From: an uncultured Bacilli bacterium
GTDB lineage: Bacteria; Bacillota_I; Bacilli_A; RFN20; CAG-631
NCBI GenBank assembly: GCA_947626825.1
Contig: CANQTM010000013.1
Coordinates: 1 to 41,355, forward strand
DNA length: 41,355 nucleotides
Direction: 5' to 3'
Part shown: positions 13,662-28,642 of the stretch, in pieces
How positions within the stretch are numbered: the stretch's first letter is position 1
Layout: each line of letters opens with the position of its first letter
Notes under the pieces: model-generated
What the model saw: the letters and a program-made list of their open reading frames with translations, nothing else
What the model was told of the DNA's origin: nothing
The model's database searches: none
Translations under genes and position numbers: made by a program

Positions 13662-15089
13662 ATGAAAAAAAATTTGAAGTTGTTAGCTGTATTGTTGATG
13701 GCTACTTCATTACCAGGTCTTGCATCTTGTGGTGGTAGTACTGGTGGAAAAATTACTGGACTTAGTGGTAACGTAACTATCAACTTTTATTCAACAATGG
13801 GTACAGATTTAAAGAATGTTTTTGATCCATACATCGAAATGTTCCAACAAGAATATCCAAATATTGAAGTTGTTCACTCAACATCATCTGGTGGTTATGA
13901 TAATTTAAGAGATGATATTAAAACACAACTTGGTAACAATGAAGGCCCAAACCTTGCTTATTGTTATCCTGACCATGTTGCATTGTATAATCTTTCAGGA
14001 AAAGTTCAAACATTAGATAAATTTATCAATGATACTGAAAAAGATGAAAATGGTAATTTAAAATATGGTTTAACTAAAGAACAACAAGATGATTTTGTTC
14101 CTGGTTATTGGAATGAAGGTAAATCATATGGTGATGGATTAATGTATTCACTTCCATTTTCTAAATCAACAGAAGTTTTATATTACAATAAAACTGTATT
14201 TGATGAAATGAATTTAAGTGTTCCTACTCATTGGTTTAAAGATGACACAGGTACTGGATTCACTCCTGAAAACTCAATGGAATATGCTTGTGAAAAATTA
14301 ATTGAAAAATATCCAAATGATATTCCTTTAGGATATGATTCTGAAGCTAACTGGTTTATTACATTATGTGAACAATATGGTGCTGATTACACTTCAACAA
14401 ATAAAGATAATCATTTTATTTTCGATAATGAAACAACAAGAGAATTTGTTGCAAAATTAAATGGCTGGAGAGAGAAAAATTATTTCACAACTCAATCAAT
14501 TGAAGGCACATATACATCTAGTTTATTTGTAAATCAAGATAAATCAAGTAAATCATCTTATATGTGTATTGGTTCATCTGCTGGCGCATCTCACCAATTC
14601 CCTGGTATTGATACTGCAACAGAAAATCCATATTTTGAAGTTGGTATTGCTCCAATTCCACAAGTAAATCCAAATAATAAAAAAGTTATTTCTCAAGGTC
14701 CATCAATTTGTATCTTTAAGAAATCAAATCAAGATGAAGTTTTAGCTTCATGGTTATTTTTAAGATATTTAGTTACAAATGTTCCTCTAATTGCTGACTT
14801 TGCTATGAGTAGTGGTTATGTACCACCTATCAGATCAATTGAAAAGAATGACATATACCATGATTATCTTGCAAATGCAAATGGAAATACATCTAAAGGA
14901 TGTACTGCATTAAGTGCTAAAGTATGTAATGAACAAGCTGATTATTATTTTACATCACCTGCATTTGTAGGTTCATCTGATGCTAGAGATCAAGTAGGTG
15001 CATTAATGAGTGCAGTATTTACAGGATCTAAATCAATTGATGATGCATTTAAAGATGCATTAGCTGAATGCGAAGCTGCAATTAAATAA
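13662..15089 (+). CDS. Extracellular solute-binding lipoprotein 1 of the nuclease-linked ABC importer
   Basis: A 475-residue family 1 (MalE/UgpB-like) binding protein. The signal peptide ends in lipobox LASC with lipidated C23. NVTINFYSTMGTDLKNVFDPYIEMF begins the first lobe in the way usual for the family (split here as NVTINFYSTMG and FDPYIEMF). Near residues 160-200 it has SLPFSKSTEVLYYNKTVFDE, the cross-over seen in sugar-binding proteins. It ends with PAFVGSSDARDQVG and an acidic tail. GGAGG precedes the ATG. The next gene is a close paralogue of the same length. The ligand cannot be read from sequence. Confidence 0.88.
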   Translation: MKKNLKLLAVLLMATSLPGLASCGGSTGGKITGLSGNVTINFYSTMGTDLKNVFDPYIEMFQQEYPNIEVVHSTSSGGYDNLRDDIKTQLGNNEGPNLAYCYPDHVALYNLSGKVQTLDKFINDTEKDENGNLKYGLTKEQQDDFVPGYWNEGKSYGDGLMYSLPFSKSTEVLYYNKTVFDEMNLSVPTHWFKDDTGTGFTPENSMEYACEKLIEKYPNDIPLGYDSEANWFITLCEQYGADYTSTNKDNHFIFDNETTREFVAKLNGWREKNYFTTQSIEGTYTSSLFVNQDKSSKSSYMCIGSSAGASHQFPGIDTATENPYFEVGIAPIPQVNPNNKKVISQGPSICIFKKSNQDEVLASWLFLRYLVTNVPLIADFAMSSGYVPPIRSIEKNDIYHDYLANANGNTSKGCTALSAKVCNEQADYYFTSPAFVGSSDARDQVGALMSAVFTGSKSIDDAFKDALAECEAAIK

Positions 15090-15152: not shown

Positions 15153-16580
15153 ATGAAAAAAATAATTAAATTGTTATCTGTTGTAACAATAATTACTTGT
15201 ATGACAGGTTGTGGTGGTAAAAAAAATGACAAGCTTACTGTTGAATTTGATAGCAGTAAGCCTGTTTCAATTACTTTTTATCATACAATGAATGCTAATC
15301 TAAATGAAGTTTTAGATGAAGCAATTGGTAGATTTAATTTAAAATATCCAAATATAAATGTTGAAAATGTTTCTGCTGGTGATTATGATGGTGTTAGAGA
15401 TCAAATGAAAATTGCTATTTCATCAGAACAAGGAGCCGCAAGTGATTTAGTATATTGTTATCCAGATCATGTTGCTTTATATAATCAAGCTAATGCAGTT
15501 GTTGCACTTGATAGTTATATAAACGATACTAAGACTGATGAAAATGGTGAACTATTATATGGTTTAACAAAAGAACAGCAAAATGATTTTGTACCATCAT
15601 ATTGGAATGAAGGTAAAGAATTTGGTAATAATTTGATGTATTCATTACCATTTTCTAAATCATCAGAAGTATTGTTTTACAATAAAACATTTTTTGAAGA
15701 AAATGAACTTCAAGTTCCTATTCATTGGTTTAAAGATGACAAAGGTACTGGATTTACAGAACAAAATTCAATGGAATATGTTTGTGAAAAAATTAAATCA
15801 TTAGATACAAAATGTTATCCATTAGGTTATGATTCTGAAGCCAATTGGTTTATTACAATGTGTGAACAATATGGCTCAGCTTATACTACAAGTATTGGAA
15901 CAGAACATTTCCTATTTGATAATGATACAAATCGTGCATTTGTTAAAAGATTTAAACAATGGTATGACAAAGGATATTTCACTACTAAAGATATTTATCG
16001 TGAATATACATCATCATTATTTACAGAAACTAATCCTGATGAAATGAAATGTTATATGTGTATTGGTTCATCAGCTGGTGCTTCAAATCAAATTCCACCA
16101 AATGAAGCATTTGAAGTAGGAATTGAAAAAATTCCACAATTAGATCCTAATAATGGTAAAGTTATATCTCAAGGACCAAACGTTTGTATCTTTAATAATG
16201 GCGATAATCAAAAAGTTATGGCAAGTTGGCTACTTCTTAGATTTTTAACAACTGATGTATCTTTCCAAGCTAACTTCTCAGTTATTTCTGGATATTCACC
16301 AGTTATTAATGAAGTATATAGAAACGAAATTTATAATGAATTACTAGAAGGTGCTAACGGTTATAGCAATTTAACTGCTTTATCAACTAAAGTCGCTAAT
16401 TCACAAAATGATTGGTATTTTACATCACCAGCATTTGTTGGTTCATCTGATGCAAGAGATGAAGTTGGCATATTAATGGATAAAGTATTTACAGATGAAA
16501 GAACAGATCTTGATACAATTATTGATGAAGCATTTAAAGCTTCTCTTGAATCATTAAAAGCAAAAGGAGCTGGTAAATGA
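15153..16580 (+). CDS. Extracellular solute-binding lipoprotein 2, paralogue of the preceding gene
   Basis: 475 residues, the same length as its upstream neighbour and alignable throughout. It shares YCYPDHVALYN, LTKEQQ-DFVP-YWNEGK, SLPFSKS-EVL-YNKT, HWFKDD-GTGFT, YMCIGSSAGAS and PAFVGSSDARD. The signal peptide ends in MTGC (lipidated C20). The N-terminal third and the extreme C-terminus differ most. It arose by tandem duplication and probably docks on the same permeases with a different or broader ligand range. It ends in TGA, overlapping the next start as ATGA, so the nuclease gene is translationally coupled to it. Confidence 0.87.
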   Translation: MKKIIKLLSVVTIITCMTGCGGKKNDKLTVEFDSSKPVSITFYHTMNANLNEVLDEAIGRFNLKYPNINVENVSAGDYDGVRDQMKIAISSEQGAASDLVYCYPDHVALYNQANAVVALDSYINDTKTDENGELLYGLTKEQQNDFVPSYWNEGKEFGNNLMYSLPFSKSSEVLFYNKTFFEENELQVPIHWFKDDKGTGFTEQNSMEYVCEKIKSLDTKCYPLGYDSEANWFITMCEQYGSAYTTSIGTEHFLFDNDTNRAFVKRFKQWYDKGYFTTKDIYREYTSSLFTETNPDEMKCYMCIGSSAGASNQIPPNEAFEVGIEKIPQLDPNNGKVISQGPNVCIFNNGDNQKVMASWLLLRFLTTDVSFQANFSVISGYSPVINEVYRNEIYNELLEGANGYSNLTALSTKVANSQNDWYFTSPAFVGSSDARDEVGILMDKVFTDERTDLDTIIDEAFKASLESLKAKGAGK

Positions 16581-23184: not shown

Positions 23185-24120
23185 ATGTATCAAAAAGTTT
23201 TAAAGATCATTGATAAATATGATAAGATAATCATTTCTAGACATAATAGACCTGATTTGGATGCACTAGGATCTCAACTTGGTTTAAAACAACTTATCTT
23301 AGATAATTTTAAAAATAAAAAAGTATATGCTGTTGGCGATATGACTAGAACATGTTTTTTAGGTGATATGGATGATATTAATGAAGATGAATATTATAAT
23401 TCTTTATTAATTTTAACTGATGTATCAGTTAGTGAATTATTACCTAATATACCATATGAAAAAGCAAATAAAATCATTTGTCTTGATCATCATGAAAATA
23501 AATGTAATATTAAAAATGCTTTAGCAATTTATGATCATAATGCTGCGGCTGCTTGTCAAATAATTGCTAAAATGGCTCTTACAAATAATTTAGTTATCAC
23601 AGAACAAACTTTTAGATGTTTTTTTTCAGGAATTATTTCAGATACGAATCGTTTTAATTTTTCACTTAGTAAAGATTTATTTAATATAACAGGAGAATTA
23701 ATAAATTTAGGATTTAATTATTCAGATATTTATAATATAATGTATTCTGAAAAGGTTAGTAATCTTAAAATGAAAGCCTATTTTATAGATAAATTTGTTG
23801 TTGACTCATATGGTGTAGCATATATGTTTAATGATGCTAGTGTTTTTGAAAAATTTCCTGTTGATTTTTTTAGTATTTCAAGGGGAATGGTTAATGTAAT
23901 GGCTAACCTTGATGGAGTTGAAATTTGGTGTAATTTTACAGAAGATCCAATGACTAAAAAAGTTGTTTGTGAATTTAGAAGTAAAAATATACCAATTGTT
24001 GATATAGCAACTAAATATGGTGGTGGCGGTCATAAACTTGCATGTGGAGCAACAATAAATAATTTTGAAGTTGCTAAAAAAATAATTGAGGAATTTGATA
24101 ATTTATTGAAAGGAAGCTAA
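23185..24120 (+). CDS. DHH-DHHA1 phosphoesterase, NrnA/MgpA-like (first of pair)
   Basis: 311 residues. NrnA enzymes hydrolyse 2-5-nt RNA and DNA fragments and 3',5'-pAp. Visible metal motifs are RHNRPDLDALGSQ near residue 20, LTDVS near 77, CLDHHEN near 99 (the DHH signature), and GIISDTNRF near 153. The DHHA1 substrate loop GGGGHKLACGA lies near residue 275. Motif I reads PDLDA instead of the usual PDGDA. It is followed one base later by a related gene, so the pair may have split substrates. In Mycoplasma genitalium a DHH gene (MG190) follows a nuclease/ABC cluster, as I recall. Confidence 0.88.
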   Translation: MYQKVLKIIDKYDKIIISRHNRPDLDALGSQLGLKQLILDNFKNKKVYAVGDMTRTCFLGDMDDINEDEYYNSLLILTDVSVSELLPNIPYEKANKIICLDHHENKCNIKNALAIYDHNAAAACQIIAKMALTNNLVITEQTFRCFFSGIISDTNRFNFSLSKDLFNITGELINLGFNYSDIYNIMYSEKVSNLKMKAYFIDKFVVDSYGVAYMFNDASVFEKFPVDFFSISRGMVNVMANLDGVEIWCNFTEDPMTKKVVCEFRSKNIPIVDIATKYGGGGHKLACGATINNFEVAKKIIEEFDNLLKGS

Positions 24121-24121
24121 A

Positions 24122-25102
24122 ATGGATTTTGGTATTTTACTTAAAAAAATTAAAGAATATGATACTATAGCCATTTTTGGTCATATAAGGCCTGATGGTG
24201 ACTGTTATGGTTCTTTAAATGGACTTAAGAATATCATAATGACAACTTTTCCAACGAAAAGAGTTTTTTGTTTGACAAGTCATGTGGAATCTTTAACTTT
24301 TTTAGGTAAAATGGATGATGTAACTGATGATGAAATTTTTACTAATGCCTTAGGTATAGTTTGTGATACATCTACAAGAGAAAGAATTGCTGATAAAAGA
24401 TATAAACTATGTAAAGAATTAATTAAAGTTGACCATCATATAGTGATAGATAATTATGGTAATTATAACTTTGTAGATGAAAATATTCCAGCAACATCAT
24501 TACTTATATGTCGCTTCTTTTTTACGTACCCTGAAGAATTAAAAATGACTTCAATTGGTGCTAATGCGTTATATACAGGAACTATTACTGATACAAGTAA
24601 TTTTCGTTATCGTGGCGTTAATTTGGAAACATTTACATATGCAGGCAAGTTAGTTGAATTAGGAGCCGATGTTGAATATATAGATCATAATTTATCTTGT
24701 GAATCATTAAGAACAACTAAATTGAAAACATTTGTTTATCGTACACTTAAAGTAACAAAAAATGGTGTGGCATATGCTAAATTAACTAAAACCATTATTA
24801 ACCACTATAATGTTACATATGATGAAGCAGCCTCACTTGTTACTTTGTTATCAAATATTAAAGAATGTCCAGTTTGGATTTTATTTATAGGTTATCCTAA
24901 AGAAGTAAGAGTTAGAATTCGTTCAAATGGTCCTGATATAAATATGCTAGCTGAAGCTTATGGTGGAGGTGGTCACCAAAAAGCAGCAGGTGCGTCATTA
25001 AAATCATGGTTTAAGGTTCGTAATTTCGTAAAAGATAGTGATGAACTTGTTCGATGTTATAAACAAAATATTCCTTATAAGATTGGAAAGAAAGAGGTTT
25101 AA
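24122..25102 (+). CDS. DHH-DHHA1 phosphoesterase, NrnA/MgpA-like (second of pair)
   Basis: 326 residues, paralogous to the upstream gene. Motif I is the canonical GHIRPDGDCYGS near residue 20. GIVCDTS, KVDHHIV (DHH), TGTITDTSNFRYRG and GGGGHQKAAGA follow in the normal order, so every metal and substrate loop is intact. By motif quality this copy is the better candidate for the oligoribonuclease/pAp phosphatase role. The stop is 7 bases before the 5'-nucleotidase start, in an operon running from the RDD genes. Confidence 0.9.
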   Translation: MDFGILLKKIKEYDTIAIFGHIRPDGDCYGSLNGLKNIIMTTFPTKRVFCLTSHVESLTFLGKMDDVTDDEIFTNALGIVCDTSTRERIADKRYKLCKELIKVDHHIVIDNYGNYNFVDENIPATSLLICRFFFTYPEELKMTSIGANALYTGTITDTSNFRYRGVNLETFTYAGKLVELGADVEYIDHNLSCESLRTTKLKTFVYRTLKVTKNGVAYAKLTKTIINHYNVTYDEAASLVTLLSNIKECPVWILFIGYPKEVRVRIRSNGPDINMLAEAYGGGGHQKAAGASLKSWFKVRNFVKDSDELVRCYKQNIPYKIGKKEV

Positions 25103-27623: not shown

Positions 27624-28044
27624 GTATATTTTAAAAAATCTTTTTATTGTTATTATTGGTTTATTATTTTCATTTGCAGCTTTAGAATTTAGTATATATA
27701 TTAAATTAACTAATATGTCTTTTGATGAATATTATATACATTTTTTTAATGAAGAATATCTAAATATAATAATATTTATTTTAAGTTATATTTTTGTATA
27801 TTTTATTTTTTCTTTATTTAATTATTTGATAAGTTCAAATACTATTACCAATTATTATTCTTTTATTTTGGCATTATTTATTTCTACATTTCATGTATAT
27901 ATTTTATATATAAATGATATTACTTTTGATATAGAAAGTTATTTAAGTTTAATAAGCATTCAAATTTTTTTATCATTTTTTATTAATTATTCGACTAAAT
28001 ATGAAAATGGAATCAATAAAAACTTGAAAAAAAGGACCTTTTAA
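27622..28044 (+). CDS. Small multi-TM membrane protein, unknown
   Basis: About 140 residues, mostly hydrophobic, with four predicted TM segments (about 5-25, 47-70, 79-98, 108-123) and a basic tail KNLKKRTF. No family was recognised. There is no ATG; TTG at 27622, five bases after GGGTGA, is preferred over the GTG at 27613, which lies in the ribosome site. Both the start and the ribosome site sit in the 3' arm and tail of the preceding terminator, so translation would need read-through or an internal promoter. Base composition is extremely AT-rich. Treated as probable rather than certain. Confidence 0.5.
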   Translation: MYILKNLFIVIIGLLFSFAALEFSIYIKLTNMSFDEYYIHFFNEEYLNIIIFILSYIFVYFIFSLFNYLISSNTITNYYSFILALFISTFHVYILYINDITFDIESYLSLISIQIFLSFFINYSTKYENGINKNLKKRTF

Positions 28045-28052
28045 GTTATAAT
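28024..28052 (+). promoter_or_regulatory. Consensus promoter of efp
   Basis: TTGAAA at 28024-28029, exactly 17 bases, then TATAAT at 28047-28052, overlapping the end of the preceding gene. The leader is about 25 bases with AGGAG just before the ATG. Confidence 0.7.
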
Positions 28053-28081
28053 TAAGGCGATTAAAAAAAGGAGTGTTGTTT

Positions 28082-28642
28082 ATGGTAATCTCAAACGATT
28101 TAAAACCAGGAAATTATTTTTCATATGATGGCAATATTTATGTAGTATTAGATACTTTACATAATAAAACAGCAATGGCCAAAATGGTTATTAAATTAAA
28201 AACAAAAAATTTAAGAACTGGTGCTATTACAAATATTTCATTATCAGGTGGTGAAAAGGTAGAAGATATTCATATCGATAAAGAAGCAATGTCATATCTT
28301 TATGATGATGGTGATTCAATTGTATTTATGAATCAAGAAACTTATGAACAAATTTCTATACCAAAAAATAGATTAGAAAATGAAATGAAATTTTTAGTTG
28401 CTGCTTTACCAGTTGAAATTATTTCATATCAAGGTGAAGTTTTATCATTAAATTTACCTGCAAAAGTTGCATTAAAAATTACTCATACTGAACCTGGAGT
28501 TTCAGGTGATACACAAACAAGAGCATTAAAAGATGCTACTTGTGAAACAGGTTTATTAATTAAAGTTCCATTATTTATTGAAGAACATGAAAAAGTATGG
28601 GTTAAGACTGAAGATGGCTCATACGACTCAAGAGTTAACTAA
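28082..28642 (+). CDS. efp: Translation elongation factor P (Met at the tip position)
   Basis: 186 residues, three-domain EF-P, which rescues ribosomes stalled at polyproline. The N-terminus aligns without gaps to Bacillus subtilis EF-P (from memory), sharing NLRTGAI and GEKV. The C-terminal TQTRALKDATCETGLLIKVPLFIE is the family signature region. The tip residue that is modified in characterised EF-Ps (Lys32 in B. subtilis, in PGKG) is Met32 here, in KTAMAK, codon ATG 28175-28177. The ATG at 28082 follows AGGAG; the TTG at 28073 lies too close to it. It is followed by its own terminator. Confidence 0.95.
   Translation: MVISNDLKPGNYFSYDGNIYVVLDTLHNKTAMAKMVIKLKTKNLRTGAITNISLSGGEKVEDIHIDKEAMSYLYDDGDSIVFMNQETYEQISIPKNRLENEMKFLVAALPVEIISYQGEVLSLNLPAKVALKITHTEPGVSGDTQTRALKDATCETGLLIKVPLFIEEHEKVWVKTEDGSYDSRVN

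Follow-up and report, generated by a model that had tools for sequence, protein, structure and literature searches.

The elongation factor P (EF-P) gene examined here lies in a 41,355-nucleotide stretch of DNA (the window) from an uncultured Bacilli bacterium of the CAG-631 lineage and encodes methionine at the loop tip, the residue that is normally modified. This methionine tip is real and nearly order-wide, and it is not an artefact. On sequence grounds, we see about an even chance that the protein is an unmodified EF-P whose tip charge has been displaced to Lys34, the position being Arg33 in most relatives. This nearby basic residue went unremarked in the first-pass annotation, and it offers a possible simple route to unmodified function. 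The features concerned are as follows.

28024 to 28052, forward strand: promoter-like TTGAAA-17-TATAAT just 5' of efp (11/12 matches)
28069 to 28074, forward strand: AGGAGT, resembling a ribosome-binding site, 5' of the efp ATG (from the sequence)
28082 to 28642, forward strand: efp, elongation factor P of the Met-tip (NKTAM) type, 186 amino acids (TIGR00038 and Pfam domains; coordinates include the stop codon)
28163 to 28186, forward strand: tip loop codons 28 to 35, N K T A M A K M (from the sequence; loop 29 to 35 in the model)
28175 to 28177, forward strand: Met32 codon at the loop tip (ATG, codon 32 of the open reading frame from ATG 28082)
28181 to 28183, forward strand: Lys34 codon (+2), candidate displaced positive charge, proposed from co-variation with tip type

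The window protein scores 207.2 bits against the TIGR00038 equivalog (cutoff of 185.8), and its KOW, OB, and C-terminal domains (PF08207, PF01132, and PF09285) all exceed their cutoffs, in agreement with the first-pass annotation, which had called the rest of the protein intact. Relative to an ortholog from the same genus (88% identity), dN is 0.080 and dS is 0.684 (dN/dS of about 0.12), and codons 28 to 36 differ by synonymous changes only. The gene is under purifying selection. The intact open reading frame and the dN/dS ratio rule out a pseudogene, and a sequencing error is ruled out because the same-genus ortholog and most of the order have the Met tip too. A second EF-P copy, including one with a Lys tip, was looked for in the source genome (95% complete) and was not found. 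Promoter-like sites are not in excess in the region (26, versus 30.6 in shuffled sequences). The neighbors of efp encode an MBL-fold hydrolase, a small hydrophobic open reading frame, a SpoIIIAH-like protein, and Tex; none matched a known EF-P modification family in a profile search. The SpoIIIAH-like gene (PF12685; 28731 to 29258, forward strand) lies directly 3' of efp in what is a low-GC genome of 1.8 Mb.

Alignment with Staphylococcus aureus EF-P (PDB entry 6rji) is gap-free across the loop and places Met32 opposite Lys32 of VKPGKG. A structure model built on a 29-sequence alignment (the window protein and 28 named loci) gives a strand at residues 18 to 28, a loop at 29 to 35, and a strand at 36 to 43, with a mean pLDDT of 86.2 (76 for residues 31 to 40). 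The Escherichia coli and Bacillus subtilis sequences align likewise, with the tip residue opposite Met32. Residue 32 falls at the midpoint of the modeled loop, so Met32 is predicted to sit at the center of a tip loop of the normal seven residues; in E. coli EF-P, the loop spans residues 31 to 37 with Lys34 at its center (PMC6544042). The gapless alignment and the modeled loop center thus uphold the initial placement of Met32 at the normally modified residue. A small shift that would bring a Lys or Arg to the tip was looked for and is ruled out, as Met-tip rows keep a loop of ordinary length and need no gap to align with Lys32. The best PDB fold matches of the model are EF-P structures, and no Met-tip structure was recognized among 12 PDB sequence matches (alignments inspected for five). 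Hallmarks of the known tip types are absent from the window protein: residues 32 and 30 are Met and Thr rather than the tip Lys and Pro at -2 of the Lys type, the Arg tip of Arg-type EarP EF-Ps is missing, and so is the EfpL combination of an Arg tip and a loop of more than seven residues. The first-pass annotation had reasoned that such a protein must work unmodified or by a different tip chemistry; Lys or Arg chemistry is indeed impossible at residue 32, but sequence cannot choose between the two options.

The order of the source organism is represented by 58 genomes, source included, of which 54 yielded an EF-P match and 48 a readable tip (unread in G028, G037, G038, G045, G049, and G055). 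Related lineages, which the first-pass annotation had suggested aligning, share the substitution: Met tips occur in 44/48, Arg tips in two (G006 and G013), and a Lys copy only in two (G023 and G053, with estimated contamination of 7% and 5%). NKTAM is identical in all 44. An extra Lys copy was seen beside the Met copy in G011 and beside the Arg copy in G013, and no Lys-tip copy was seen in 43/44 of the Met-tip genomes read. At the DNA level, the NKTAMxxM pattern is present in 80/395 genomes of the class, comprising 53/55 of the order, 23 of family f25, and four elsewhere; the wider "phylum" sample consists of genomes of the same class only, and the spread of NKTAM is known within that class. 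The two genomes of the order lacking the pattern are G048 (no EF-P found) and G006. The four matches elsewhere (G175 in f19, G260 in f20, G167 in f21, and G411 in f27) are DNA pattern matches only. The last (G411:C14:552-575) is an exact NKTAMAKM coding pattern in a family whose other EF-Ps read have Lys tips, and it may be a Met-tip EF-P, a chance match, or contamination. In f25, six Met loops were identified as parts of EF-P (L162 to L165, L167, and L170), and f29 contributes one Met-tip row (L189, FNKTAMREG). Arg tips are found in Allobaculum (L107), Longibaculum (L146), and six f11/f22 rows, in five of which efp uses TGA for Trp in the manner of Mollicutes.

Across 198 unique EF-P rows (80 Met, 20 Arg, and 98 Lys tips), tip type and neighboring charge form a consistent pattern that is statistically unproven after accounting for relatedness. 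All Met-tip rows from unseeded whole-protein searches (49/49) carry Arg33 or Lys34: 35 have Arg33, and the other 14 have Ala33, with Lys34 in every case. The full set of unique Met-tip rows gives 80/80 (63 Arg33 and 17 Ala33 with Lys34), although this count is partly seeded, as loci L082 to L161 came from a scan (at least 80 matches) with two peptide seeds, one of them NKTAM[RA][KQ]M, which biases the Met-tip +1/+2 counts. No basic residue occurs at position 33 or 34 in 20/20 Arg-tip rows and 97/98 Lys-tip rows. The exception, L182 (G117, family f26), has an unusual loop, NV-PTKRGSV, and is the sole Lys-tip row with a basic +1 residue. Four f27 rows (L204, L205, L209, and L212) have a tip loop shorter by one residue (HVLQNK-VAYVR or HVLQNK-TAFVR); the short-loop f27 EF-P stands beside a normal VKPGKG copy in G223 and G277, and both copies are short in G130.

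The Lys, Met, and Arg states require six changes over the 198 unique rows on a quick tree, which was built with the loop columns excluded and carries SH-aLRT support only. One group of 98 rows (SH-aLRT of 95) contains all 80 Met and 18/20 Arg rows, with the remaining Arg rows (L175 and L178) placed among Lys rows. Two Arg groups, NKTARSAM and NKSARGQM/NKTARGQM, are nested in Met rows (groups with support of 95 and 90), a placement that suggests two separate changes from Met to Arg. The root of the 98-row group is poorly resolved, and the tree does not fix whether Met or Arg came first. Met and Arg tips can be compared in three contrasts on supported branches (four on all branches), and the +1/+2 charge tracks the tip in 3/3; with so few contrasts, the trend does not reach significance (sign test, p = 0.25). 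By parsimony, position 33 has switched between Arg and Ala on five or more occasions, and the exchange of Ala33 against Lys34 provides three contrasts, of which one to two are informative.

These observations can be accommodated if the window protein is the ordinary cellular EF-P of a clade that abandoned the modifiable Lys tip. The loop would have been replaced as a unit, from VKPGKGAA to NKTAM[R/A][K/Q/G]M, and the positive charge at +1 or +2 would stand in for the tip Lys or Arg, with residue 33 or 34 contacting the tRNA. Such a Met-tip EF-P would be active and would lack modification. Against a displaced charge, an E. coli EF-P K34M variant has been tested and is inactive (PMC6544042), although this substitution was made in a PGKG loop, and Lys34 of the window protein lies two residues beyond the tip.

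Known modification genes are missing from the source genome as far as it was searched: EpmA and YmfI did not exceed their cutoffs and PF06838 was not found, which matches the absence that the first-pass annotation had suggested checking. EpmA was above cutoff in 0/16 genomes (2/14 controls); weaker EpmA-like matches occurred in 16/16 and are probably lysyl-tRNA synthetase. YmfI was above its cutoff of 238 bits in 0/22 genomes (1/14 controls), and weaker matches to reductases of the YmfI/FabG kind were present in 20/22, the best scoring 222.5 bits (G233) and that of the source genome scoring 148. The EarP profile matched 0/19 genomes, but it matched no control genome either. PF06838, the YnbB family, matched the B. 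subtilis and Synechococcus controls. It was retrieved from 11/80 genomes: four of the order (G011, G013, G023, and G053) and G077, G080, G110, G126, G134, G140, and G187. Within the order, this amounts to 4/4 genomes with a Lys-tip copy versus 0/39 others (37 Met, 1 Arg, and 1 unread). The absence of PF06838 is not special to Met tips, however, because most single-copy Lys-tip relatives examined also lack it.

In 10/11 genomes, no more than about 4 kb separates PF06838 from a Lys-tip efp (the exception is G077). A co-oriented reductase gene of the FabG/YmfI kind was found directly 3' of the accessory Lys-tip efp at 9/9 loci examined (L213, L215 to L217, and L219 to L223, from G140, G134, G110, G080, G126, G013, G011, G023, and G053), a count that excludes G187. 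These reductases are on average 64% alike (50% at the least) and at most 41% alike to five other reductases of the class, which were chosen by motif and assumed to be FabG. They score 151 to 173 bits against the YmfI cutoff, and FabG models score them higher; the label "YmfI-like" is applied provisionally, from position and B. subtilis genetics rather than from a family threshold. Several of the loci also have a membrane protein of ~400 amino acids at the 5' side, which is PnuC-like (PF04973) in L223, the sole one scanned. Efp, the YmfI-like reductase, and the PF06838 gene likely constitute a transferable EF-P modification cassette. We infer that some genomes keep this self-contained Lys-type cassette beside a Met- or Arg-tip EF-P; it was not found in the source genome. 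A broader account, which we put forward tentatively, would describe a large EF-P clade that functions unmodified, with Met at the tip and the catalytic positive charge offset to +1/+2, in which Met and Arg tips are interchangeable and to which some members have added the transferable Lys-tip cassette.

The remaining explanations can be weighed against what the cell must translate. ValS of the source genome contains PPPNVTG; eight other genomes have PPPN[VI]TG in seven cases and PPPTV in G006. Five Met-tip genomes of the order without a Lys copy (G000, G001, G002, G004, and G012) keep the ValS PPP. A cell of the source type thus has to synthesize at least one PPP with a Met-tip EF-P alone. It is unlikely, in our judgment, that this EF-P is weak or mainly structural, with YebC and ABC-F proteins handling a few polyproline motifs and the proteome avoiding PP. 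The inactive K34M variant would fit, as would a YebC-family protein that is above cutoff in the source genome and could help with PPP, but that protein also occurs in the Lys-tip genome tested (G067). Sampled open reading frames are depleted in PP (47 seen versus 77.3 expected) and PPP (0 versus 2.5). The depletion is similar in a Lys-tip relative, however, with observed/expected ratios of 0.71 there against 0.61 and 0.64 for the two Met-tip genomes sampled (PPP is 0 in all three), and PP avoidance was therefore rejected as a signature of weak EF-P, the ratios being too close to separate. Purifying selection and the invariant NKTAM also speak against a weak protein.

Modification of the loop by an uncharacterized enzyme, on Met32, Lys29, Arg33, or Lys34, would agree with the modified tip that several well-studied EF-Ps need (PMC11611912) and with an invariant Lys29 (80/80 unique Met-tip rows). 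We consider it quite unlikely: Lys29 is unspecific, being present in 20/20 Arg-tip and 92/98 Lys-tip rows, and a dedicated enzyme would hardly permit the Arg33/Lys34 swap across relatives. The efp neighborhood, devoid of known modification families, points the same way, although an enzyme gene could sit elsewhere. Very unlikely is a shift of the Met-tip EF-P to another role or other stall motifs, with a Lys-tip EF-P doing the classical job where present. Four genomes (G011, G110, G134, and G140) do carry both types, the Lys-tip copy in its own cassette, yet such a copy is the exception among the Met-tip genomes of the order, and the ValS motif is retained in all five genomes tested in which no such copy was seen.

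Precedents for an unmodified protein carrying a displaced charge were sought in the literature (PMC6544042, PMC11611912, and PMC5885033). Met tips made up 0.77% of 1166 EF-Ps in the census of Volkwein et al. (2019), never with Pro at -2 (PMC6544042), and Met-tip EF-Ps are also on record in PMC11611912. The first-pass annotation described characterized EF-Ps as carrying Lys or Arg at the tip, but Met tips had been recorded before. Census members resemble the window protein in having a Met tip and no Pro at -2; for native Met-tip EF-Ps, the portion of the census drawn on reports neither a function nor a pattern of displaced charge (PMC6544042). B. subtilis EF-P (Lys32, 5-aminopentanolylated) and S. 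aureus EF-P (~40% identical to the window protein) belong to the same family and share the seven-residue loop but differ in their VKPGKG loop with a modifiable Lys. Arg-type EF-Ps (EarP, rhamnosylated) and Mollicute-like Arg-tip EF-Ps share the absence of Pro at -2, and the Arg-tip rows group largely with Met rows; they differ by their basic tip and non-basic +1/+2 positions. EfpL (YeiP) functions with an unmodified tip, and an actinobacterial EF-P with a stiffened loop is said to do so as well (PMC11611912). EfpL differs in its longer loop with Arg, and its profile gives the window protein 113.8 bits, short of the cutoff of 216. The stiffened-loop protein is presumably of the Corynebacterium glutamicum type. 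C. glutamicum EF-P (PDB entry 6s8z) has a similar fold and differs by its Lys tip (VKPGKGP). Among the open-licence papers listed, none was found whose title or abstract dealt with native Met-tip EF-P function, displaced charge, or an efp cassette. The Met-tip category was already known, and the +1/+2 charge rule, the Met/Arg interchange, and the cassette link were not found described.

The finding bears on a general question, namely what makes EF-P depend on a modified tip and why the modifications are so diverse. A clade without a modifiable residue but with a consistent replacement pattern makes it possible to test directly which property the tip has to provide, be it charge, position, or loop stiffness, and loop anatomy together with co-variation gives a testable mechanism.

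Elsewhere in the window, two pairs of tandem genes were observed on the forward strand. One pair (23185 to 24120 and 24122 to 25102) encodes NrnA-like DHH phosphatases, both below the NrnA equivalog cutoff; the other (13662 to 15089 and 15153 to 16580) encodes solute-binding proteins of 475 amino acids each and adjoins ABC transporter genes.
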